Shown: positions 6,286 through 28,785 of the stretch, one piece after another
How the letters are laid out: each line of letters opens with the position of its first letter
Numbering within the stretch: the stretch's first letter is position 1
Source of the DNA: Anaerolineales bacterium
GTDB lineage: Bacteria > Chloroflexota > Anaerolineae > Anaerolineales > RBG-16-64-43
Reading direction: 5' to 3'
Assembly (NCBI GenBank): GCA_016928575.1
Contig: JAFGKK010000107.1
Location: 1-46,784, forward strand
Length of the DNA stretch: 46,784 nt
The notes under the pieces: generated by a model
Seen by the model: only the letters and a program-made list of their open reading frames with translations
Databases searched by the model: none
What the model was told of the DNA's origin: nothing
Program-made: the position numbers and the translations under genes

Positions 6286-7917
6286 TTGGCCGGCGACCTG
6301 ACCCCCTCAACCCTCGCGCTCAGCCCTCTGCGCGAAATCGCCCAGGCGCTTTCCGCCGCCTGGGACCTGGATACCACGCTGGATCTGATCGCGCGGCGGA
6401 CGAACCACGTGATGGGCGCGGATTCCTGCTCGATCTACCTGCTCGAGCCCGAGGGGGAAATTCTGCGGCTGCGCGCCTCAACCCGCCTGGCCCGCGAATC
6501 GCTCGGGCGGGCTTCGCTGCGGCTGGGCGAGGGCCTGACCGGGTGGGCGGCGAAGCACGGCAAGAGCGCGGCCGTGCGCGAAGCCCGCCTGGACCCGCGC
6601 TTCAAGCTGCTGCCGGAAACCAACGAGGAAGGGCTGCGTTCGCTGCTCGCCGTCCCGTTGACCAACCGCGGGCGGGTGATCGGGGCGATGAACGTCCAGA
6701 CCGCCGCGCCGCGCGATTTCTCCGAAGCCGAGGCGGAACTGCTGATGCTGATCGGCGACCTGGCGGCCGGCGCTCTGGACCGCGCCATGCTCCACGATTC
6801 GATGCGCAACCGGCTGGACGAGCTGACCACCCTCGCCAAAGTCAGCCAGACCGTCACCTCGCCGATGGTCCCGGACCAGATGCTCGAGCTGGTGGCGGAG
6901 ATGGCCGCCGGGGTGATGGGCAGCGACGTATGCTCGCTGCAGCTGATCGACGAAGACCACAAGGAGCTGGTTATGCGCGCCGCCTGGAGCCGCAGCCCGG
7001 CCTACCGGCGCCGGCCGCCCCTGCGGATCGACGAGGGAATCGTCGGCGAGGTGATCCGGACCGGAAAGCCGGTGGCCGTCCAGGACGTGCGCGTCGATCC
7101 GCGCTACCACTTCAAGGACCTGGCGCGGCGGGAAGGCCTGGTCTCCCTGCTTTCGGTTCCGCTGGCCGTGCGCGAGAAGGTGATCGGCGTGATGAACGCC
7201 TACGTCGGGCGGCCGGTGGAGTTCACCCCGCAGCAGGTCGCGCTGTGCACCACGCTCGCCAACCAGACGGCCCTGGCGATCGAGAACGCGCGGCTGGCCG
7301 CCGGCGCCGCGATCGTGCGCGAGATGCACCACCGGGTCAAGAACAACCTGCAGACGGTGGCGATGCTCCTGCGCATGCAGCAGCGCGAAGGGGATTCCGC
7401 AGGGCCCGCCGACGCGCTGGGCGCCGGCATCGGGAGGATCCTGGCCATCGCCGCGGTCCACGAAACCCTCTCGCGTCAGGGATACGCCCTGGTGGACCTG
7501 CGGCAGGTGGCGGAACGCATCGTCCGGCTGACCTCGCAAAACATGGTGCGGCCGGACCTCGCCGCGACCATCACGGTGGAAGGGGATTCCCTGCTCCTGC
7601 CCTCGCGGCCGGCCACCTCGCTGGCCCTGGTGATCAACGAGCTTCTGCATAACGCACTGGAACACGCCTTCGGCGGCCGCGCGTCCGGAAGCGTGCGGAT
7701 CCTTCTGGCCCACACCCCGGAAGATACGCTAGTGGAGATCTTGGACGACGGCGTGGGATTGGACGGCGGACAGCCGCGGGAGAGCCTCGGACTGGAAATC
7801 GTGCGGACCCTCGTCCGCGAGGACCTGTGCGGCAAGCTGGCGTTTGAATCCGGCCCCGAAGGAACGCGGGCGACGGTCCGCATTCCGCACACCGAGGCGT
7901 TTCAGGAGGCGGAATGA
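6286..7917 (+). CDS. GAF-GAF sensor histidine kinase (HisKA_2 type)
   Basis: This 543-residue soluble kinase probably senses a small molecule and phosphorylates the ANTAR response regulator encoded directly downstream. Residues about 20-165 and 185-335 are two GAF domains (LRSLLAVPLTNRGRVIGAMNV and VSLLSVPLAVREKVIGVMN). Residues 340-365 hold the HisKA_2 phospho-acceptor region MHHRVKNNLQ (His348/349). The ATPase domain follows with NELLHNALEHAF, DDGVGLDGG and SLGLEIVRTLV. The start is TTG with GAGGA seven bases upstream. The stop overlaps the next start (ATGA), so the pair is coupled. In other bacteria HisKA_2 kinases paired with ANTAR regulators control RNA antitermination (for example EutW/EutV). 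Here the neighbourhood suggests a nitrogen signal, which is inference. Confidence 0.92.
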   Translation: MAGDLTPSTLALSPLREIAQALSAAWDLDTTLDLIARRTNHVMGADSCSIYLLEPEGEILRLRASTRLARESLGRASLRLGEGLTGWAAKHGKSAAVREARLDPRFKLLPETNEEGLRSLLAVPLTNRGRVIGAMNVQTAAPRDFSEAEAELLMLIGDLAAGALDRAMLHDSMRNRLDELTTLAKVSQTVTSPMVPDQMLELVAEMAAGVMGSDVCSLQLIDEDHKELVMRAAWSRSPAYRRRPPLRIDEGIVGEVIRTGKPVAVQDVRVDPRYHFKDLARREGLVSLLSVPLAVREKVIGVMNAYVGRPVEFTPQQVALCTTLANQTALAIENARLAAGAAIVREMHHRVKNNLQTVAMLLRMQQREGDSAGPADALGAGIGRILAIAAVHETLSRQGYALVDLRQVAERIVRLTSQNMVRPDLAATITVEGDSLLLPSRPATSLALVINELLHNALEHAFGGRASGSVRILLAHTPEDTLVEILDDGVGLDGGQPRESLGLEIVRTLVREDLCGKLAFESGPEGTRATVRIPHTEAFQEAE

Positions 7918-8495
7918 GAAAATTGAAGATCCTCGTCGCCGACGACGAATCGCTGATCCGGATGGGGTTGAAGACGATGCTTTCCGGATTGGGGCACGAG
8001 GTGCTGACCGCCGCCGACGGCCACGAAGCCTTGAGCCTTTTCCACGCCCGCGCCTTGGACCTGGCGATCCTCGACATCCGCATGCCGTTCACCGACGGGC
8101 TGGAAGCGGCCCAGGCGATGTGCCGCCGCCGGCCGATCCCGGTGCTGATCCTGACCGCCCACGGCGAACAGGACCTGATTGAAAAGGCCGCCGCGCTCCC
8201 GATTCAGGGGTATCTGATCAAGCCGGTGGACGAACGCGGCCTGGCGGCGGCGATCGAGGTGGCGGTATCGCGGTTTGAAGAATCCCGGCGGCTCGCAAGC
8301 GAAACGTCGGAAATCCGCGAAGACCTGGAATCCCGCAAAGTGGTGGAGCGGGCCAAGGGGCGGCTGATGCAGAGAGGCAAATCGGAGGAAGAAGCCTACA
8401 GCCAGATTCAGGAACGAGCCCGCTCGCGGCGGATCCCCATGCGCCGGGCTGCGGAAGAATTGCTTCGCGCACCGGCCCAACCTCCTGACCCCTGA
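7914..8495 (+). CDS. ANTAR-domain response regulator (RNA-binding antiterminator)
   Basis: This 193-residue protein has a receiver domain (residues 1-118; acidic pair DD at 10-11, phospho-Asp54 in AILDIRMPF, Lys in YLIKPVD), a helical linker, and a C-terminal ANTAR domain from about 135 to 185 (VVERAKGRLMQRGKSEEEAY, ending RRAAEELLRA). ANTAR domains bind stem-loops in nascent mRNA and stop a terminator from forming. The gene overlaps the kinase gene by four bases and lies 435 bp upstream of glnN, whose leader carries a terminator. A second, receiver-less ANTAR protein at 28417-28785 has a very similar domain, so both may read the same RNA element. Confidence 0.93.
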   Translation: MRKLKILVADDESLIRMGLKTMLSGLGHEVLTAADGHEALSLFHARALDLAILDIRMPFTDGLEAAQAMCRRRPIPVLILTAHGEQDLIEKAAALPIQGYLIKPVDERGLAAAIEVAVSRFEESRRLASETSEIREDLESRKVVERAKGRLMQRGKSEEEAYSQIQERARSRRIPMRRAAEELLRAPAQPPDP

Positions 8496-8842: not shown

Positions 8843-8856
8843 GGGCCATGACGCCC
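8843..8856 (+). promoter_or_regulatory. leader motif GGC-CRYGAM-GCC (glnN copy)
   Basis: GGGC-CATGAC-GCCC can fold as a 4-bp stem with a six-base loop. Its 3' half is also the start of the 5' arm of the terminator at 8851-8895, so the two folds exclude each other. Four more copies with the same layout occur in this window. Confidence 0.6.
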
Positions 8857-8895
8857 GTTCCGCAATGCGGTTGCATCGCGGGACGGGCGTTTTTT
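8851..8895 (+). terminator. intrinsic terminator inside the glnN leader (attenuator)
   Basis: The 18-nt arms 8851-8868 and 8873-8890 pair with one G-U wobble and one mismatch around a GGTT loop, followed by T-run 8891-8895. It lies between the promoter and the glnN ribosome site (ATG at 8931), so it must be read through for glnN expression. That is the expected arrangement for antitermination control. Confidence 0.8.
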
Positions 8896-8930: not shown

Positions 8931-11024
8931 ATGCCGGAGTTAAACGAACTGTTCGGTTCCAACGTGTTCACCGACGCCAAGATGAAGGAGCGGCTTCCCA
9001 AGCCCGCCTACCAGGCTCTGCGCAAGACGATCGACCGGGGCGTGGCGCTCGATCCGTGGGTGGCCGAGGTGGTCGCCGGAGCGATGAAGGAATGGGCGGT
9101 GGAGATGGGCGCCACCCACTTCACCCATTGGTTCCAGCCGCTGACGGGCTACACCGCCGAAAAGCACGATTCCTTCATCAGCCCCTCCTCCAACGGCAAA
9201 GTCATGCTGGAGTTCTCCGGCAAGGAGCTGATCCGCGGCGAACCGGACGCCTCGTCGTTCCCATCCGGAGGCCTGCGGGCCACCTTCGAAGCCCGCGGCT
9301 ACACCGCCTGGGATTGCACCTCGCCGGCCTTCCTCAAGGACCACGCCCTGTGCATCCCGACGGCGTTTGTCTCCTACACCGGGGAGACGCTGGATAAAAA
9401 GACGCCGCTGCTGCGCTCGATGGACGCACTTTCCAAGCAGGCTCTGCGGATTCTGCGGCTGTTCGGCAACACCGCCGCCGAGAAGGTGACCACCACGGTC
9501 GGCCCGGAACAGGAGTATTTCCTGATCGACAAATCGACCTACGACCGGCGCAAGGACCTGATCCTCGCCGGACGGACCCTGTTCGGCGCCAAGCCGGCCA
9601 AGGGCCAGGAGCTGGAGGACCATTACTTCGGCCAGATCAAGGAACGCGTCTCGGCCTTCATGGAGGAGCTCAACCAGGAGCTGTGGCGGCTGGGGATCCT
9701 CGCCAAAACCCAGCACAACGAAGTCGCCCCCGCCCAGCACGAACTGGCGCCGATTTTTTCCAGCACCAACCTCGCCACCGACCACAACCAGCTGGTGATG
9801 GCCTTCATGCAGAAGGTCGCCCGGCGGCACGGCTTGGTGTGCCTGCTGCACGAGAAGCCTTTCGCCGGCGTCAACGGCTCCGGCAAGCACAACAACTGGT
9901 CGATGGCAACCGACGACGGGCAGAACCTGCTGGATCCGGGGACGACGCCGCACGAGAACATGCAGTTCCTGGTCTTCCTCATGGCGGTGATCGCCGCGGT
10001 CGACGACTACGCCGACCTGCTGCGGGTCTCGGCCGCCACGCCGGGCAACGACCACCGCTTGGGCGCCAACGAGGCTCCGCCGGCGATCATCTCGGTCTTC
10101 CTCGGCGAACAGCTGACCGACATCCTCGCCCAATTGGAGAACGGCGGCGCGACGAACTCGAAGCAGGGCGGCACCCTGAACCTGGGCGCCTCCACGCTCC
10201 CGCCGCTGCCCAAAGACAACACCGACCGCAACCGCACCTCGCCCTTCGCCTTCACCGGCAACAAATTCGAGTTCCGGATGGTGGGCTCGTCGGCTTCGAT
10301 CGCCATGCCCAACTTCGTCCTCAACGCGATCGTAGCCGAAACCCTCAGCCAGTTCGCGGACCGGCTGGAAAAGGCCAAGGACCTGAAATCCGAGGTCCGG
10401 GCGCTGCTGCGGGAATCCGCGCGGACCCACAAGAAGGTGATCTTCAACGGCAACAACTACTCCGAAGACTGGGTCAAGGACGCCGAAAAACGCGGCCTGC
10501 CCAACATCCGCTCGACCGTCGCCGCGACGCAGGCGCTGGCCGAGAAAAAGAACATCGCCCTGATGGAAAAGCACGGGATTCTGAGCAAGGCCGAGTTGGA
10601 ATCCCGCCGGGAAATCATGCTGGAGGGTTACGTCAAGACGATCCGGATCGAGGCATTGACGATGCTGGAGATGGCCAAGCGGCAGATCCTTCCCGCCGCC
10701 GTGGAGTACATCTCCGATCTCGCCGAATCGATCCGCGAGGTGAAAGCCGCCGGGGTCGAGGCCGAAACCAGCGCGCAGGCCGAGACTCTGCGGGAAGTCT
10801 CCACGGTTGCGGCCTCGTTCAAGAATAACGTCGCGCGGTTGGAATCCAAGCTGGCGGAAGCCGATGCCGTGGACGGCGGCGCCTATCCGCAGGCTTGCGC
10901 CTTCCGCGATTCCGTGTTCACCCAGATGGCGCTCCTGCGCGAGGACGGCGACAAGCTGGAAGCGCTGGTCAGCGCGGAGGTTTGGCCGTATCCGACCTAC
11001 AGCGATATGCTGTTCAATATCTGA
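8931..11024 (+). CDS. glnN: glutamine synthetase type III
   Basis: This 697-residue enzyme makes glutamine from glutamate, ammonia and ATP. The length and motifs match the GSIII family (about 700 residues, dodecamer of double hexamers), not GSI or GSII. Visible are the N-terminal GSIII region ([18 protein letters not shown]), [11 protein letters not shown] with metal-ligand glutamates, [16 protein letters not shown], the ATP/metal loop [14 protein letters not shown], and [19 protein letters not shown]. The C-terminal 150 residues are helical as in family members. The start is the ATG at 8931 after ACGGAGG; reading further upstream would run through the terminator. It sits downstream of the ANTAR regulator and is probably controlled by leader attenuation. 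Confidence 0.96.
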
Positions 11025-11352: not shown

Positions 11353-14190
11353 TTATTGCGAGCCTTCCACTATCGCAATCTCTTCTGATGTCAATTCATA
11401 CAATTCATAAACTAAAGCGTCTATTTGAGAGTCGGTGGAGTCAATCAATCGCTGAAGACGCTCCTCTTCAATAATATCCTTCGCGACCTTTTTTTGTTTG
11501 TGAATATCAATCATCTGCTTAACGATCACTATCATTTTTTCTTGATCCTGCATCCAATTTAGTGGAAGTGGTAGTTCGGATATTTTAAATCCACCAACCT
11601 CCATCAATAACCCATACTTCTTCACAAACCACCAATTAGCTAATGTCGAGTTGAATAAACCTAATACCGCGAACAATGATTCGATAGGCAATTCGGGTTG
11701 CAATATTAGGTTTGAAAGTGAATGGCGATTCACCGCACCGCTGAAATCGCATGCTCCGATTAACTGTCTGGGTAACTTTTTCCGAAGTCGGTGGAATAAT
11801 ATTTTTGGTTGTTTGAAATATTTGGGGTCTCGTGGGCACCATAACCAATTACCATAGTGTATGTATGCAGTAGGTGCATCAATTTCAAATCTCCTAAGCT
11901 GTGATGCACTTTCAAGTAAAGGATACCAACCAAGACCTCTTGGTTTTTCTGCGATGTATCGATTAGCTTCACCATCTTCTTTTGTCTTATAAGGGATTAC
12001 GCCTTGCGAATAATCCACCAAATCTCCCAAAGTTCCCCCGTCACAATTCATTTTTGTTAAAAGGGATATCTCAATTGGATTTGCTTGTAGATTAATGATG
12101 CTTTGCTTATCATCTTTCCATATTGATTGGCTTATTGTAAATTTATATTCAATTCGATGATCTTTAGTTCCTTTAGAAATAGATGTAAGCGATGCATCAT
12201 CCAATTTCTTTCTATTGGTAATAATTGAGATGACGGTATCAACAATTGCTTTTTGAAAAACTTTAGTTGGCTCAAGGTCAACAAGATGATAGAAGAAACC
12301 TTTCGAAAGTAAATAACGCCGCAATTGCGCACCATAATGGTTCGTTAACCAAGCATTTGGTGTGATATATCCAAGGCATCCGGACGATTTCAATAAATTG
12401 AAGCCCCTCTCGAAAAAGAAGATGTATGTTTCAGGTTTTCCTTTTCGGTATATAAATTGACCTTGAAAGTATTCTTTTTCCTTTTCTGTGTAATCAGCAC
12501 CATACGGCGGATTACCAATCACGCAATCAAATCCGCCCGCCTGCATTGCCTCTGGAAACTCCGCCGCCCAATCGAACGGGTTTACGCGCCGCAATTCCTC
12601 CGGATCGGGCATAAGCCGGCCGGCGAAGTAATCCGGCCCGATCAGGCTGTTGCCGCACTTGATGTTCTTATCCAGGTTGGGGAGCGCGCGCTCGGGGAGC
12701 AGTTCCATCTGCCTCTGCCGGCTCAGGCTCTCGTCGCTCTCGCCCTCCAGAACCTTGATCAGCAGGCTGAGCTTGGTGACTTCCGCCGCCTGCCGGTCGA
12801 TATCGACTCCGAAAATGTGCTCGGTCAGGATGCGCTTCTTTTCGGCGGTGGTCAATTTCCAGGTATCCCGATATTTCCAAACGGCGTTTTTGTTCTTCTC
12901 CGGTTCGTTCGCCGTGTACCAGCCGAGGTAATGATCCATCAGATATTGATACGCGCCCAGGAGGAAAGATCCGGATCCGCAGGCCATGTCCAGAACCCGG
13001 AAACCTTTCAGCTGTTTCGGGCTCTTTCCTTCCACCTGTTTGCCGACCGCGTTTTTGACGATGTACTCGACGATGTACGCGGGAGTGTAATATACGCCCC
13101 CCGCCTTTTTAACCTCCGGTTTTTCCTCGACCTTGGCCTGATGTCCGGCTGTGAGCCGGATGACCTTGCCAAGGAACTGCTCGTACACGTTGCCCAGGAT
13201 CTCCACCGGCAGTACGTTGAAGGCATAAGGCGATTTCGGAAAGTACAGGTCGGCGAGGATCGGCTCGAGCGCCTTATCGTCCAGCACCAGGTCCGGCGTG
13301 ACACTGTCGCCGGTCTTGGAGAAATCGAACAGTCCGGAGTTGTAGCGCGAATCCGCCTGGCGGCACATCGCGATCAGTCCGGCGTAGATTTCGTCGCCTT
13401 CGGCCAGCTTCTGCAGGCGGCCGTAGGGCTCCACACCGCGGTCCTCCGCCATGCGCAGAAAGATGATCCGGTCGATCGTCCGCTGAACGGCGTCGTTCAG
13501 CTCGTCGATCGTGAGGTCGGGGTTTCGCAGGGCGATATTGCGCGCGAGCGCGTTGCGCCAGCCTTCGATTTCCTTCAGGAATTCGGCGTCCACTTCCGAC
13601 GTTCCGCGCCGTCCCCGGCCGGCTTGGGCGAAAGCATCGAAGGAACCGCTCCGCACCGCCTCGCGCGAAAAAACGTCCCAGACCTCGTGCCAGCGGTCGG
13701 GATACTCCTCATAGGTTATGTAGTTCAGACGCGCCGTGGAGGATTTATCCTTGTCCGAAGGCCGGATCCGGCAATCGTAGGCGGACCACTCCTGAAAATC
13801 GGTGAGGACCGACAGCGGCAGTTTGGCGCTCCAGGCATAGCGCCGCAATTGATACGCCGGGGAGAGCGAGGTTTTGATGTCGACGCCCGGCTTCTTGGCT
13901 TCGGCGAAGAATTTGCGCTCCCGCCCCACCCGAAACACGTAATCCGGAGCGCGGTGAGCCTCGTTTCTTCCCATATCCAGTGAATCTTCGACGACAACCT
14001 CGCGGTACTCCGGCGCGGCCTGTTGTTGGTTGCGCACGTCCCAATTGAGCGCCATGAACAGCGGGTCGATGAACTCCTGACGCACGTGCGCTTCCTTGTA
14101 CCCGGAAGCCTGATAGGCCGCCCGGTGGGCCGAAAAATGCTTTATCAGCCTGGCGATCTCGTCTTTGGATTGATCGAAGGTGAATGCCAT
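11353..14190 (-). CDS. type IIG restriction-modification enzyme (N6-adenine methylase fused to nuclease)
   Basis: This 945-residue protein appears to be a single-chain restriction-modification enzyme. Residues about 30-140 hold a PD-(D/E)XK nuclease candidate (PDY at 82-84, then AEAKK with Glu97 and Lys99). A helical connector leads to an N6-adenine methylase with SAM motif I (LDMACGSGSFLLG, about 400) and catalytic NPPY (about 558). The rest resembles an Eco57I/TaqI-type target-recognition domain. No separate specificity or nuclease gene is nearby, consistent with a stand-alone type IIG system. The part after NPPY (roughly 11353-12500) is distinctly AT-richer than the first part, which suggests that the recognition half was exchanged by recombination. 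The gene lies alone between N-metabolism genes, typical of a mobile defence gene. Confidence 0.88.
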   Translation of the reverse strand: MAFTFDQSKDEIARLIKHFSAHRAAYQASGYKEAHVRQEFIDPLFMALNWDVRNQQQAAPEYREVVVEDSLDMGRNEAHRAPDYVFRVGRERKFFAEAKKPGVDIKTSLSPAYQLRRYAWSAKLPLSVLTDFQEWSAYDCRIRPSDKDKSSTARLNYITYEEYPDRWHEVWDVFSREAVRSGSFDAFAQAGRGRRGTSEVDAEFLKEIEGWRNALARNIALRNPDLTIDELNDAVQRTIDRIIFLRMAEDRGVEPYGRLQKLAEGDEIYAGLIAMCRQADSRYNSGLFDFSKTGDSVTPDLVLDDKALEPILADLYFPKSPYAFNVLPVEILGNVYEQFLGKVIRLTAGHQAKVEEKPEVKKAGGVYYTPAYIVEYIVKNAVGKQVEGKSPKQLKGFRVLDMACGSGSFLLGAYQYLMDHYLGWYTANEPEKNKNAVWKYRDTWKLTTAEKKRILTEHIFGVDIDRQAAEVTKLSLLIKVLEGESDESLSRQRQMELLPERALPNLDKNIKCGNSLIGPDYFAGRLMPDPEELRRVNPFDWAAEFPEAMQAGGFDCVIGNPPYGADYTEKEKEYFQGQFIYRKGKPETYIFFFERGFNLLKSSGCLGYITPNAWLTNHYGAQLRRYLLSKGFFYHLVDLEPTKVFQKAIVDTVISIITNRKKLDDASLTSISKGTKDHRIEYKFTISQSIWKDDKQSIINLQANPIEISLLTKMNCDGGTLGDLVDYSQGVIPYKTKEDGEANRYIAEKPRGLGWYPLLESASQLRRFEIDAPTAYIHYGNWLWCPRDPKYFKQPKILFHRLRKKLPRQLIGACDFSGAVNRHSLSNLILQPELPIESLFAVLGLFNSTLANWWFVKKYGLLMEVGGFKISELPLPLNWMQDQEKMIVIVKQMIDIHKQKKVAKDIIEEERLQRLIDSTDSQIDALVYELYELTSEEIAIVEGSQ

Positions 14191-14299
14191 GAAATACCTT
14201 GGTGGATAATTCAGGGTTGGACTTATTATAGAACGAGATCGCTGAAAAATCCCCTATTTTCAGCCCGTCCACCGCCGGCGAATCTGGCCCGTTTGGGGG

Positions 14300-14327
14300 T
14301 GGATATACCCGGAAGATAAAGTATACT
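14300..14327 (+). promoter_or_regulatory. candidate promoter before first permease-side leader hairpin
   Basis: TGGATA at 14300-14305 and TATACT at 14322-14327 are 16 bp apart. A start near 14334 would give a transcript of about 68 nt up to the terminator at 14367-14402. Confidence 0.4.
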
Positions 14328-14359
14328 CGGATCAAGATCGACAACCGAATATCTCGCAA

Positions 14360-14371
14360 GGCCGCGAAGCC
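14360..14371 (+). promoter_or_regulatory. leader motif GGC-CRYGAM-GCC (permease side, copy 1)
   Basis: GGC-CGCGAA-GCC. Its last five bases begin the 5' arm of the terminator at 14367-14402, as at glnN and amt. Confidence 0.55.
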
Positions 14372-14402
14372 TCCCGTCCCGTGTGGGACCGGAGGCTTTT
14401 TT
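14367..14402 (+). terminator. intrinsic terminator following leader motif
   Basis: The 14-nt arms 14367-14380 and 14385-14398 pair with one mismatch around a GTGT loop, followed by a T-run through 14402. No gene lies directly downstream, so it ends a short RNA or acts as the first attenuator of a long leader. Confidence 0.8.
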
Positions 14403-14431
14403 CTTCCGCAGCAATCTTCGCCGAAACGCGA

Positions 14432-14518
14432 AGGTTGTGAATCGAGAGGAGCAACGCGCGGGGGTCACACCGGGGTGGTGGGGGCCGATGCGGGTTAGCT
14501 CCTCTTGATTCACAGCCT
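14432..14518 (+). ncRNA. unassigned large RNA hairpin
   Basis: The 21-nt arms 14432-14452 and 14498-14518 enclose a 45-nt centre. The two arm differences are U-G and G-U wobbles if the plus strand is transcribed, but would be mismatches in the minus-strand RNA. That supports a plus-strand structured RNA. It does not match tRNA, SRP RNA, tmRNA or RNase P signatures that I know. It sits 30 nt after a terminator, so it would need its own promoter or read-through. Confidence 0.45.
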
Positions 14519-14636
14519 CCTTCAGCCGGCGGAAAGTATCCCGGCGCCGCAACGGGCATCCCTTTGCAGGGGTGGAAATTCGCCCAAGCAGGCATGTCAA
14601 GAAGCCGGTCGAGCAGCCTGAGTTCTCCGCGGGCGA

Positions 14637-14668
14637 ATCGAAACCACCTTTTTTCTTGTGGTTTCGAT
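14637..14668. other. perfect 11-bp inverted repeat with T-rich loop
   Basis: ATCGAAACCAC and its complement flank CTTTTTTCTT. It could be a terminator or an RNA stem in the non-coding region before the permease. No gene was found between 14191 and 15311. Confidence 0.4.
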
Positions 14669-14827
14669 GCTCCCCGCCAAAACGCCGTGGCCGCTCAATC
14701 AGCTTTACCGCATCCTTCCGCCCCTGCCAAAGCATTCCACGACTTGCGCCAACGCGGACATTCCGGATCCCCCTTTCGTAGTAATCGGACGATCTCGCGC
14801 CTTCCTGATTTGTGGCCCATTAGGGTG

Positions 14828-14855
14828 TTTCCACGGGTCTTGTTTTCCATACAAT
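14828..14855 (+). promoter_or_regulatory. candidate permease-side promoter
   Basis: TTTCCA at 14828-14833 and TACAAT at 14850-14855 are 16 bp apart. The leader motif starts about 16 nt after the -10 box. Confidence 0.4.
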
Positions 14856-14870
14856 AGCGTAAAACCAGAC

Positions 14871-14883
14871 GGGCCATGACGCC
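14871..14883 (+). promoter_or_regulatory. leader motif GGC-CRYGAM-GCC (permease side, copy 2)
   Basis: GGGCCATGACGCC is identical over 13 bases to the glnN copy. The final five bases start the following hairpin. Confidence 0.6.
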
Positions 14884-14908
14884 TCCGGAGGAATTCCTTC
14901 GGAGGCGT
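14879..14908 (+). terminator. terminator-like hairpin after leader motif
   Basis: The 13-bp stem (ACGCCTCCGGAGG with CCTTCGGAGGCGT, one wobble) has an AATT loop. The following bases are not a clean T-run, so terminator activity is less certain than for the glnN and amt hairpins. Confidence 0.5.
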
Positions 14909-15022
14909 TCGCATTAATCCAGTGGCGCGGGCCGTCCCCCGTTTCCGCGGAGGGTGTTTCCGAAGGGGCGGGCGCAACACGGTGGAACGCAAGGGGGTCG
15001 GCGGACAAATGAATATATTCCC

Positions 15023-15065
15023 GGCCGCGACGCCTTGAACGGATATTCGGTTCAAGGTGTCGGCC
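15023..15065 (+). promoter_or_regulatory. third leader motif and hairpin before the permease
   Basis: GGC-CGCGAC-GCC at 15023-15034 lies in the 5' arm of a hairpin with arms 15023-15040 and 15049-15065 (stem through CCTTGAAC/GTTCAAGG, with a bulge). This repeats the motif-plus-hairpin layout for the third time ahead of the permease. It is followed by GTTTAAG and not a full T-run. Confidence 0.5.
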
Positions 15066-15100
15066 GTTTAAGGGACTGCGGGAAAAGTCATACCAGGATT

Positions 15101-15240
15101 GTCATGCCCGCGCCGGCCCTGCTTAGGAGGGCCTTCTCCTCAGGCATCCAGCCGGACAAAACCCTGGATTCCCGCTGAAACCGCGCGGGAATGACGGACA
15201 AACCACCGCGCGGGAATGACGGACAAACAACCGCACGGGA
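15101..15240. repeat. dispersed palindromic repeat B, copy 2, with tandem tail
   Basis: 15101-15195 has the same GTCATGCCCGCG ... GCATCCAG ... CTGGATTCCCGC ... GGGAATGAC layout as 8548-8641. The right end is duplicated with a period of about 25 bp (units from 15182, 15207 and a partial third). Confidence 0.8.
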
Positions 15241-15311
15241 TTTTCCAAAGAACGCCGTTCGGTTTCTTTGGAGACAACCCGGTGCGGAATACCTTCGCAA
15301 TGGAGGAAATC

Positions 15312-16859
15312 ATGGAAGCCAATTCGAGCCCAACCACGATGCGCAAGACCCTCGGCCTGACCGGGGTGACGGTCAACGCGATGGCGCTGATCGCGCCGGG
15401 GGCGTTCCTGTGGATCACGTTCCAGTTGCAGGCCGCCGCCGGCGTCAACGCCGCCGGCATGGAGAAGGACATCTGGAGCGGCGTGTTCTTCGCGCTGATC
15501 ATCGCGTTTCTCACGGCGCTTTCCTTTGCCGAGCTGGCGCGCAAATACCCCGAAGCCGGCGCCGGCGGCTCCTACTACTTCGCCGACAAAGCCTTTTTGG
15601 ACCGCGAAAAGCCGGCCCACCGGCGTTTCGCCCGCATTTCCAAATTCGTCGTCGGCTGGGCGGCGCACCTTTTCTACTGGGTCTACCCCGGGGTGATGGT
15701 GGCGATGATGGCGACGCTGGTATCTTACCTGTGCGGCCAGTTCGGGATAGCCGTCCCGCCGTGGGGCCTGGTGCTGATCGCCGCCGCGTTTTCGGCCTTC
15801 GTGGGCTTTATCGCGGTGCGCGGGATCAACGGCTCCACCGTCGTCAGCCTGGTGATCAACATCATCCAACTCGTGTCGTTGGTCGGGTTTTCGGTCCTGG
15901 CGATCGCATTCCGCCTGTCCAATCCGCTCGGCGCGACGGAATGGGTGCATCCGACGGCCGTTTCGGTGGTGCTGCCGCACAACTTTGCGTCCATGCTGTT
16001 CCAATCAACGATCGCCATCCTGATCCTGGTCGGATTTGAATCAGCCACCTCGCTGGCCGCGGAAGCCAAAAATCCGAAGCGCGACATCCCGCGCGGGGTG
16101 ATCCTTTCCTTGGCGATCCAGGGGCTGTTCGCCTACCTGCTGCAATACTTCGCCGCCAACTTCGCCATTTCCGAGAAGCTGACGGCGACCGCGTCCGACG
16201 GCACCGCCGTCTCCGGGATGGAGGCCGCCGCGGCCTCCGGGGCGCCGATCGGCGACTTGGTCCGGCTGATCGGCGACGCCATGCTGGGCGGTAACGGCTT
16301 CGCCCTGATGATCATCATCGCCTTCACCGTCGCGCTGGCGGTGCTCGGCACGACCCTGGCGGCGATGAATACCGCGGTCCGGATCTCCTTCGCCATGGCG
16401 CAAGACAAAGAGATGCCCGGTTTAATGGGGATCCTGCACGGCCGGTACGCCACCCCCTACATCGGAATCTGGCTGCTGGTGGCCGTCTCGGCGGTATTCG
16501 GCGCCGTCGGGTCGCAGAACGTGACCGCCCTGACGGGAATCACCCTGGCTTCGAATTTCGGCACGTTTGTGTTGTACGCCCTGATTTGCGCCTTGACCTT
16601 CATCGCCTTCGCGGGGCGGCGTGATTTCCGCTTCGGAAAGCACCTGATCGTTCCCGGCCTCGGACTGATCGGAAACGTCGGCATGCTGCTGGCCATCGCC
16701 GGAGTGGGCTTGGCCAGCGGAGGAACCTCCCAGGCGGCGACGGTCATCGGGCTGGGCATCGCCGCCCTGTGGGCCCTGGCGAGCGGCGCCTACTTGGTTT
16801 GGAACAGCCGCGCCCAGGGCAAGGCGATCCTACCCGCGGTCGCGGCCTCGGAATCCTGA
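15312..16859 (+). CDS. APC-family amino-acid permease
   Basis: This 515-residue protein has about 12-13 hydrophobic helices and the pattern of the amino acid-polyamine-organocation superfamily: TGVTVNAMALIAPGAFLWITFQ near the start, SFAELARKYPEAGAGGSYYF in helices 2-3, and GFESATSLAAEAKNPKRDIPRGV around 240-265. It probably imports an amino acid by coupling to an ion gradient; the substrate cannot be read from sequence. The ATG at 15312 has GGAGG five bases upstream; an in-frame ATG at 15300 is weaker. It lies among ammonium and glutamine genes, and its upstream region carries three copies of the leader motif shared with glnN and amt, so co-regulation by nitrogen is likely (inference). Confidence 0.88.
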   Translation: MEANSSPTTMRKTLGLTGVTVNAMALIAPGAFLWITFQLQAAAGVNAAGMEKDIWSGVFFALIIAFLTALSFAELARKYPEAGAGGSYYFADKAFLDREKPAHRRFARISKFVVGWAAHLFYWVYPGVMVAMMATLVSYLCGQFGIAVPPWGLVLIAAAFSAFVGFIAVRGINGSTVVSLVINIIQLVSLVGFSVLAIAFRLSNPLGATEWVHPTAVSVVLPHNFASMLFQSTIAILILVGFESATSLAAEAKNPKRDIPRGVILSLAIQGLFAYLLQYFAANFAISEKLTATASDGTAVSGMEAAAASGAPIGDLVRLIGDAMLGGNGFALMIIIAFTVALAVLGTTLAAMNTAVRISFAMAQDKEMPGLMGILHGRYATPYIGIWLLVAVSAVFGAVGSQNVTALTGITLASNFGTFVLYALICALTFIAFAGRRDFRFGKHLIVPGLGLIGNVGMLLAIAGVGLASGGTSQAATVIGLGIAALWALASGAYLVWNSRAQGKAILPAVAASES

Positions 16860-19037: not shown

Positions 19038-19106
19038 ATCCTCCCCGTTTGCCGCTGAGTTTTAGCCGACGGGGCGGCCCCGGGCGCCGAAATCCACGCT
19101 CCCTTC

Positions 19107-19553
19107 TCACTCGCAATATTCGAGGATGTCGTCCATGATCGGCTCCGCTCCGGCCTTGTCGCCGATCGCCTCGCCCAACCGCTCGCGCTTCTCGTCGATA
19201 TCGCCGGCGTAGTGCAGCGCCTCGCGGCCGCGCTCGCCGGTGCGGATCCGGATCACGTCCTCGACCGGATAGACGAAGATCAACCCGTCCCCGATGCTGC
19301 CCGTCGCGGCCGAAGCGCGGATCGCCTCGACCGCCTTGTCGAGGTTGTGGTCGCTCAGGACGATGTTGACCTGCAGCCGGGGCAGCAGATCGACCGTGTA
19401 ATCGCCGTTGCGCCCGGATAGTTTGATCCCCCCTTGCCGCCCGTGGCCGCGGATCTCGACCACGTTCATGCCGACGATCCCGATCTGGTGCAGGGCGGTC
19501 TTCACGTCCTCCAGTTTCTCGGTGCGGATGATGGCCTCGATTTTCTTGGTCAT
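19107..19553 (-). CDS. glnK: PII nitrogen-regulatory protein (GlnB/GlnK type)
   Basis: This 148-residue trimeric signal protein binds ATP/ADP and 2-oxoglutarate and usually blocks the Amt channel when nitrogen is plentiful. Motifs are KIEAIIRTEKLEDVKTAL, the T-loop base GHGRQGG (37-42), DYTVDLLPRL with Tyr52 at the place of the E. coli uridylylation site Tyr51, and the ATP site GSIGDGLIFVYPVEDVIRIRTGERG. The tip of the T-loop (IKLSGRNG) differs from the usual TELYRG. The chain continues about 36 residues beyond the normal 112-residue end, with a charged helix-like tail. The gene lies 91 bp behind amt on the same strand, the classic amt-glnK pairing. No uridylyltransferase gene is in the window. 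Confidence 0.93.
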   Translation of the reverse strand: MTKKIEAIIRTEKLEDVKTALHQIGIVGMNVVEIRGHGRQGGIKLSGRNGDYTVDLLPRLQVNIVLSDHNLDKAVEAIRASAATGSIGDGLIFVYPVEDVIRIRTGERGREALHYAGDIDEKRERLGEAIGDKAGAEPIMDDILEYCE

Positions 19554-19644: not shown

Positions 19645-20868
19645 TCACGCATACGCCAGCTCGCCGTGCTCGCTGATGTCCAACCCGACTTCCTCCTCGT
19701 CCCGGGATACCCGCAAGCCGACCGTCGCTTTGAGGATGCGGGCCAGCAGGTAGGTTGCGCCGAAAGCGAACAGGATCGAAACCGCCGCGGCCGCCGCCTG
19801 GATCAGGAATTGCGAGGGATTGCCGGCCAGCAGTCCGTCCGCGCCGGCCGGGTTGACAGCCTTCACGGCAAACAACCCGGTGGCGACGGCGCCCCAGGTT
19901 CCGCCCACGCCGTGGCAAGCCCAGACGTCGAGGGATTCATCCAAGCCCATTTTTTGGCGCAGTTTGATCGCCCCCAAGCTGATCGGGGAAGCCAGCGCTC
20001 CGATGACCGCCGCCGCCAACGGGGTGACGTAGCCGGCGGCCGGCGTGATCGCCACCAGCCCGACCACCGCCCCGGTGACGGTCCCCAGGACACTCGGCTT
20101 GTTCCGCCGCCAGGTGATCAGCATCCAACTGAGCGCGGCGGCCGCCGCCGCGGTGTTCGTCGTCACCAGGGCGCTCACCGCCGTGCCGTTCGCCGCGAGG
20201 GCGCTGCCGCCGTTGAACCCGAACCATCCCATCCACAACAGGCCGGCGCCGAGCACGGTAAAAGGAATGTTGTGAGGCTCCATCGGCGCCTCCCCGTATC
20301 CCTTGCGCTTTCCGATCACCAGCGCGAAGGCCAACGCCGAGAAGCCGGCCAGGATGTGGACCACCGTTCCGCCGGCGAAATCCAGCGCGCCCATGGTGCG
20401 CAGGAAGCCGCCGGTGCCCCACACCCAATGCGCCACCGGATCGTATATTAGGGCGGCCCAGAGAAGCGTAAACAGCAGATAGGTTTTCCATTTCACCCGT
20501 TCGACAAACGCCCCGGTGATCAGCGCCGGGGTAATGACGGCGAACATCATTTGGAAAGCCATAAACGCCAGGTGCGGGATCGTCGCGGCGTAGTCGGGAT
20601 TCGGCTCTGCGCCCACGCCGGCCAATCCGAGGTAGTTCAGCCCGCCGAAGAGACCGCCCCCGCCCGTGCCGAAGGCGAGCGAGTAGCCGACCAGCACCCA
20701 CTGCAGGCTGATCAGCGCGATGGTGATGAAACTGAGATTCAATGTGGAGAGAATGTTCTTGCGCCGGACCATCCCCCCGTAGAAGAACGCCAGCGCCGGC
20801 GTCATCATCAGTACGAGCGCGGTGGAAACCAGCATCCAAGCGGTATCGCCGGAATCTATGGACGGCAT
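19645..20868 (-). CDS. amt: ammonium transporter
   Basis: This 407-residue protein of the Amt/Mep/Rh family moves ammonium or ammonia across the membrane. It shows about 11 helices and family signatures: PALAFFYGGMVRRKN near the N-terminus, the first pore histidine region DFAGGTVVHILAG, GWFGFNGGSALAAN, and the second pore histidine in ACHGVGGTWGAVATGLF. I start at 20868 (MPSIDSG), nine bases after GAGAGG; an ATG at 20877 is in frame but overlaps that ribosome site. The C-terminal tail is short and regular, as needed for PII contact. It is transcribed with the PII gene. Expression is probably controlled by an activator palindrome and by a terminator in its leader. Confidence 0.95.
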   Translation of the reverse strand: MPSIDSGDTAWMLVSTALVLMMTPALAFFYGGMVRRKNILSTLNLSFITIALISLQWVLVGYSLAFGTGGGGLFGGLNYLGLAGVGAEPNPDYAATIPHLAFMAFQMMFAVITPALITGAFVERVKWKTYLLFTLLWAALIYDPVAHWVWGTGGFLRTMGALDFAGGTVVHILAGFSALAFALVIGKRKGYGEAPMEPHNIPFTVLGAGLLWMGWFGFNGGSALAANGTAVSALVTTNTAAAAAALSWMLITWRRNKPSVLGTVTGAVVGLVAITPAAGYVTPLAAAVIGALASPISLGAIKLRQKMGLDESLDVWACHGVGGTWGAVATGLFAVKAVNPAGADGLLAGNPSQFLIQAAAAAVSILFAFGATYLLARILKATVGLRVSRDEEEVGLDISEHGELAYA

Positions 20869-20885: not shown

Positions 20886-20927
20886 GAAAAAGAAATAGCC
20901 CTCGGAGGATTGCCGCCTCCAAGGGCT
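20886..20927 (-). terminator. intrinsic terminator inside the amt leader (attenuator)
   Basis: On the minus strand a 12-bp stem (AGCCCTTGGAGG with CCTCCGAGGGCT, one U-G pair) and 7-nt loop is followed by ATTTCTTTTT. It ends about 18 nt before the amt start codon and lies downstream of a good promoter, so default transcription should stop here. Confidence 0.85.
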
Positions 20928-20935
20928 TCACGGCC
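20924..20935 (-). promoter_or_regulatory. leader motif GGC-CRYGAM-GCC (amt copy)
   Basis: GGC-CGTGAA-GCC read on the minus strand. Its last four bases are the start of the terminator's 5' arm, so hairpin formation by the motif would compete with termination. Confidence 0.6.
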
Positions 20936-28255: not shown

Positions 28256-28416
28256 CTCAGGGACTGGATGCGTGCAATTCCCGCCACCCCCGATCCTCTC
28301 CCGGATTGCTTGCGTGGGACCAGGCAAGCCTCTTTCCCCCCGCCCAGTAAAAATCCGGTCCCCCCTCCGCCGCAAGCAGGAAACGCATGGTTGTGCAGAT
28401 AAGAAAGGAGCCGCCC

Positions 28417-28785
28417 ATGAGTCATCCGACGATGGATAATTCCTTCGGTTCTCCCCCGTCCGCCAACCGCGGGCCGGCGTTCCGGCAGGATTCCGCGGCC
28501 GGGTTCTCCGACGCCCAGGCGGGGCGTCTCGAAAAGGATGCCTTCTTACGCCGTGTTCTCCGCGCCAAGGGGCGGGATTCCGCCCCGCTGAATATGGACG
28601 AACTGGCGGAACTGCGCTACAACCTGGAAGGGCGCAAAACGGTCGAGCGGGCCAGAGACCGGTTGATGGAGCTGGGAAAATCCGAGGGGGAAGCCTTCCA
28701 GGAAATCCAGACTTTAGCCCGGGCGCGGCGGATCCCGCTGCGGCTGGCGGCGGACGAGATCTTGCGCGCTTCCATCGAGCATTGA
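28417..28785 (+). CDS. stand-alone ANTAR-domain RNA-binding protein
   Basis: This 122-residue protein has a low-complexity N-terminus (1-45) and a C-terminal ANTAR domain (about 65-118: RKTVERARDRLMELGKSEGE, ending RLAADEILRASIE). There is no receiver or GAF domain, so it is not a classical response regulator. The domain is very close to that of the regulator at 7914-8495, which points to gene duplication and a shared RNA target. The ATG at 28417 follows AAAGGAG. It comes right after the glutamate synthase genes. It could be a constitutive antiterminator, a competitor of the regulated one, or be controlled by an unknown partner. Confidence 0.85.
   Translation: MSHPTMDNSFGSPPSANRGPAFRQDSAAGFSDAQAGRLEKDAFLRRVLRAKGRDSAPLNMDELAELRYNLEGRKTVERARDRLMELGKSEGEAFQEIQTLARARRIPLRLAADEILRASIEH

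Follow-up and report, generated by a model that had tools for sequence, protein, structure and literature searches.

The intergenic stretch 14191-15311 of the window, by which we mean the whole 46,784-nt piece of Anaerolineales DNA analysed here, is flanked by a gene for an Eco57I-type methylase and a gene for an amino-acid permease, whose ATG at 15312 is immediately preceded by the ribosome binding site GGAGG. Ahead of the permease, the pattern GGC-CRNGAM-GCC occurs three times, each time joined to a strong hairpin that starts with the final GCC of the pattern. Three such motif-plus-hairpin units had been proposed in the initial annotation, and all of them are present, folding far better than shuffled sequences (z of -3.7, -4.8 and -4.9 for units 1, 2 and 3). 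The features of the locus are:

11353-14190, minus strand: Eco57I-type methylase gene, divergent from the permease
14300-14327, plus strand: promoter-like TGGATA-16-TATACT of unit 1 (consensus scan; TATACT equally placed in G001 and G003)
14342-14352, plus strand: upstream element of unit 1, CAACCGAATAT, with a hexaloop-1-like ACCGAA and no supported stem
14360-14398, to 14402 including T6, plus strand: unit 1, GGCCGCGAAGCC, whose hexaloop GGC-CGCGAA-GCC overlaps a terminator
14432-14518, plus strand: 21-bp stem with an invariant inner core (about 14459-14487), in G000, G001 and G003 only, not in Rfam
14850-14855, plus strand: -10-like TACAAT of unit 2 (consensus scan; TAAAAT equally placed in G003)
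14872-14908, plus strand: unit 2, GGC-CATGAC-GCC and a strong hairpin without U-tract, GGCCATGACGCC
15006-15016, plus strand: upstream element of unit 3, CAAATGAATAT (motif discovery)
15023-15062, plus strand: unit 3, GGC-CGCGAC-GCC and a hairpin without U-tract, GGCCGCGACGCC
15312-16859, plus strand: APC-family amino-acid permease (Pfam; orthologue in G003)

Given that six of the 11 matches to the 13-mer version of the motif in the 3.84-Mb genome lie within this 47-kb contig, and that five of these six carry a hairpin, the recurrence of the motif in the contig is not due to chance. Matches outside the contig are coding-like and lack a hairpin, with L003 as a possible exception. Neither the window nor six related loci matched Rfam at the gathering score, and a lax threshold yielded chance-level matches only in the region; a search for tRNA and tmRNA found none. 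The segment 14420-14830 was considered as a mobile repeat and discarded, as it has a single, partial second match. A dispersed repeat with 42 genome matches, which includes two tandem 25-nt copies, is located at 15070-15240 between unit 3 and the permease.

Further units on the contig precede two genes of ammonium assimilation, and a kinase and a response regulator are encoded nearby:

6286-7917, plus strand: sensor histidine kinase (GAF-GAF-HisKA_2/HWE; Pfam)
7914-8495, plus strand: REC-ANTAR response regulator, Arg in place of EutV Met172 (Pfam; alignments)
8844-8889, plus strand: unit ahead of GSIII; its hexaloop hairpin GGCCATGACGCC overlaps a terminator with T6
8931-11024, plus strand: glutamine synthetase type III (GSIII; Pfam)
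19645-20868, minus strand: ammonium transporter (amt; Pfam)
20897-20935, minus strand: unit before amt, GGCCGTGAAGCC, with a terminator, a T-rich tail and TATAAT about 29 nt upstream

The regulator combines a REC domain with an ANTAR domain that scored above the Pfam cut-off (PF03861), and its presence together with the kinase on this contig suggests ANTAR antitermination. In Geobacter, the kinase and ANTAR regulator GnfK/GnfR reportedly govern nitrogen genes, a system that we liken to the present one at the protein level. A second ANTAR protein of the Arg type (28387-28785, plus strand, 132 aa), which has no receiver domain, is encoded downstream of glutamate synthase genes.

Across 55 distinct sites, pairing in the terminator stem reaches 97.7%, and both sides have changed in 77 cells, loop base 6 included, as compared to 26 cells for shuffles and 0-4 for slid controls. 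The second (P2) hexaloop hairpin overlaps the 5' arm of this terminator, as it does in ANTAR dual-hexaloop target RNAs. Its GGC/GCC stem did not vary among 51 sites, one AGC/GCT variant being seen, and the hexaloop hairpin therefore gains little support from covariation. Both C1 and G4 of the loop were found in 51 of 51 sites, the conservation of C1, G4 and A5 being partly set by the site search, while positions 1-3 were left free in the hairpin search. In the terminator, loop base 6, which is C, A or U, is paired to the opposite arm, and the terminator thus constrains it. Motif discovery in the 40 nt upstream of the 51 sites retrieved the element CAAYNRAATAY (log-likelihood 97 versus 31-39 in shuffles), usually 6-9 nt ahead of the GGCC hairpin. 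It can be read as A-Y-N-R-A-A, a hexaloop with A-U as the closing pair, like a first ANTAR hexaloop. An upstream P1 hairpin around this element was convincing in single cases (e.g. GATA-ACAGAA-TATC in L083), but pairing of the flanks was not above shuffles across the 24 usable sites, and the stem was not retained. Dual-hexaloop targets have A1 and G4 in both loops; here, P2 has C1, and the first element reads A-N-N-R.

A covariance model was built from 14 units of eight of the 12 genomes that later matched. The unit occurred in 12 of 41 relatives, 16 of which encode ANTAR proteins; all 12 are among the ANTAR-encoding genomes, and none of the 25 relatives without ANTAR has the unit (Fisher p=2e-7), a test that is partly circular due to the origin of the seeds, yet about half of the matches are new sites. 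Within the class, Anaerolineae as judged from named records, 35 of 396 genomes, mostly MAGs and with a site collection biased to the seed motif, carry the unit, and 31 of these 35 encode ANTAR. The remaining four are fragmented assemblies, and three of them have ANTAR-bearing congeners. The Arg-type ANTAR subfamily was present in 25 of the 35 motif genomes and in 42 of the 361 others (p=4e-14, without phylogenetic correction; typed by alignment extent and score in most genomes and sequence-checked in about 45 loci). The motif is more strongly associated with this subfamily than with ANTAR at large. Many Arg-type genomes (Thermoflexales-like, f18) have no clear unit, and no motif was found near some 70 ANTAR genes from other taxa, which are mostly Met-type, except for one Armatimonadota locus with Arg-type ANTARs. 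On that contig (L124), tandem GGCCACGACGCC units of the C1 type are located just upstream of an ANTAR gene of the Arg type, which is followed by another pair of units, GGCCGGGACGCC (unit positions 19100-19190 and 19830-19915). The site L090 (G336) is doubtful, as a -10-like hexamer abuts its hairpin.

The genes directly downstream of the units, identified in part by Pfam and in part by recognisable N-termini, are amt, glnA, GSIII and those for glutamate synthase and LysE exporters. Dozens of genomes have one cis copy of the unit ahead of amt, glnA or GSIII, in most cases at a distance of 45-140 nt. These consistent nitrogen targets, together with the fixed loop sequence, the upstream element and the co-occurrence with ANTAR, argue against the assumption that the units are ordinary intrinsic terminators or hairpins which share a GC-rich arm and have no link to ANTAR. 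Although scanning the 7-kb region for promoters and terminators gave chance-level results and the invariant GGC/GCC stem would fit such terminators as well, we regard this explanation as highly improbable.

Leaders controlled by EutV share the 13-nt element AGCAANGRRGCUY across the 5' arm of the terminator (PMC3369931). The unit aligns to this P2 element as GGC-CRNGAM-GCC-Y, with C for A at loop base 1 as the only mismatch. EutV was reported to need both the P1 hairpin and A1 (PMC3369931), and in the EutV-RNA structure Met172 lies inside the hexaloop, G4 is stacked on Tyr164 and A1 is uncontacted (PMC8934654). In our alignments, Tyr164 is kept, while Met172 is replaced by Arg and Arg168 by Gln in nearly the whole subfamily, so that the RNA-contact set of EutV is not fully conserved; these three residues are markers of an EutV-like binding mode and do not define the Pfam family. 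An A1 counterpart of the unit, GAC-AAYGGA-GTC with A1 and G4, is located directly before glnA in three genomes of one sister genus of the same order, and a Met-type GAF-ANTAR gene adjoins it in two of the three. As far as the aligned sequences tell, loop base 1 and the residue at the Met172 position change together, in few independent cases.

The link to ANTAR, which had been put forward from the leader motifs, thus gained support from the co-occurrence in genomes, the adjacent pair of histidine kinase and REC-ANTAR regulator, and the resemblance to the P2 element of EutV. It is very unlikely that another factor or a nitrogen-metabolite riboswitch acts on the leaders while the ANTAR genes merely belong to the same regulon. 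The P1 element without a stem and the four motif genomes without detected ANTAR would be in line with this explanation, but the unit is short and leaves little room for an aptamer, the match to the EutV element is close, the contrast of A1/Met and C1/Arg would have to be accounted for, and the four exceptions are the fragmented assemblies mentioned above.

Nitrogen is a known theme of ANTAR regulation (PMC3369931). The leaders of the EutV, NasR and AmiR systems (PMC3369931, PMC8934654) likewise have a short G4 hexaloop hairpin over the 5' arm of an intrinsic terminator, and these systems have nitrogen genes, a REC-ANTAR protein with a kinase, and a similar linker length in common with the one described here. 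In contrast to them, the second hairpin here has C1, the first element has no supported stem, and the ANTAR domain carries Arg instead of Met172 and Gln instead of Arg168. Several ANTAR units before nitrogen operons are also found in the predicted regulon of Desulfotomaculum acetoxidans, with 13 RNA hits in six transcription units (PMC3369931), whereas the Anaerolineae locus differs by the C1 variant, the structured RNA that separates units 1 and 2, and the lack of U-tracts in units 2 and 3. Since the RNA switch tracks with an unusual version of ANTAR, it looks like a variant of the known ANTAR nitrogen-control mechanism.

Considering the conserved unit, the covarying terminator stem, the target genes, the link of unit and ANTAR across genomes, and the joint change of loop base 1 from A to C and of Met172 to Arg, it is probable that the units are leader RNAs under antitermination by the REC-ANTAR regulator at 7914-8495 and its kinase, with the permease being controlled by tandem units. 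Three units also stand before the permease orthologue of G003 (297 aa compared, 92% identity), which favours this reading. The unsupported P1 stem, the invariant GGC/GCC stem, the hairpins of units 2 and 3 without U-tract and the many Arg-type genomes with no clear unit count against it. We infer binding, signal and direction of control as follows. In the nascent leader, the GCC of the hexaloop hairpin (GGC-CRNGAM-GCC) would double as the 5' arm of the terminator, which forms when no signal is present. Upon a signal, the kinase would phosphorylate the regulator, whose ANTAR domain would bind and hold the hexaloop hairpin, with CAAYNRAATAY probably serving ANTAR loading; the terminator would thereby be blocked and the ammonium-assimilation genes read. 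Most simply, the local regulator would act at all five units. At the permease, unit 1 would work as a complete attenuator, with units 2 and 3 as serial copies that have no U-tract after the hairpin in G000, G001 and G003, resulting in serial control; these two may also attenuate more weakly, be relics, or serve as RNA-binding sites that do not terminate.

Each unit had been suggested to produce its own short RNA, and two candidate promoters had been named. Both promoter matches, at 14300-14327 and 14828-14855, were recovered, but the consensus scan itself performed at chance level (three found, 2.7 expected). Conservation adds to the scan: at the orthologous loci, TATACT lies at -38/-39 of unit 1 in all of G000, G001 and G003, and G000 and G003 share the -10-like hexamer at -22 of unit 2. 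Unit 2 has this hexamer and no U-tract, and unit 3 has neither a promoter-like hexamer nor a U-tract. As only unit 1 combines promoter, upstream element and U-tract, a short RNA is plausible for unit 1, but not for units 2 and 3. A box resembling TGGCCC..TNGGG is located about 20 nt before the -10 hexamers (14285-14300 and about 14816) and is present in G000, G001 and G003; it is possibly the site of a further regulator, and the pattern TGGCCC..GGG was no more frequent than chance in the window.

Such short RNAs had been suggested as possible decoys. Unit 1, and perhaps unit 2, would then be a terminated RNA that titrates ANTAR in the manner of EutX/Rli55 (PMC8934654), and the permease would have its own promoter downstream. 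Unit 1, which has a conserved promoter-like -10, the upstream element and a U-tract and is 950 nt away from the permease, could conceivably yield a short RNA that carries an ANTAR-binding element. A further argument came from G001, where two units and the 21-bp stem after unit 1 remain in front of a deletion relic of the permease (L030 6491-6867, minus strand; residues 9-90 and 490-514 left). However, the divergence of this relic does not exceed that of amt (82% versus 78% DNA identity), so the decay may be recent, and we dropped it as proof of an independent RNA function. Moreover, a terminated RNA would have its second hexaloop locked inside the terminator, a terminator signature is absent from units 2 and 3, and, unlike in EutX/Rli55, no riboswitch or sequestering architecture was identified. 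Decoys are therefore an unlikely explanation, and the tandem attenuator, which had been named as the other option, fits better because elsewhere one copy of the unit serves amt, glnA and GSIII genes as a cis leader.

Two additional stems that had been noted in the stretch proved to be real. The one at 14631-14674 was not seen in G001 or G003. The 21-bp stem has arms (14432-14452 and 14498-14518) that are 90% complementary (z of -8.2), and it follows unit 1 in G000, G001 and G003 with z of -6 to -8 and four doubly changed pair cells. Its invariant core, GGTCACACC-N-GGTGGTGGGGGCC, was found in no further genome among the 396 of the class, and the stem had no match in Rfam. Judged by these comparisons, it is a family-specific conserved structured RNA that is absent from Rfam.

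A second ANTAR code is conceivable, and we propose it tentatively: the subfamily with Arg for Met172 would read a C1 hexaloop with a stem-less loader, one hairpin being enough, and one family would have added the structured RNA with its invariant core between tandem units. If this holds true, the natural pairs of Met/A1 and Arg/C1 protein and RNA would make the specificity code of ANTAR directly testable, a nitrogen-control mechanism could be assigned to Anaerolineae, and the system would bear on whether two hexaloop hairpins really are required. The conserved 21-bp structured RNA is worth studying in its own right; its counterparts are located at about 6565-6650 of L072 and about 7222-7310 of L030 (minus strand).
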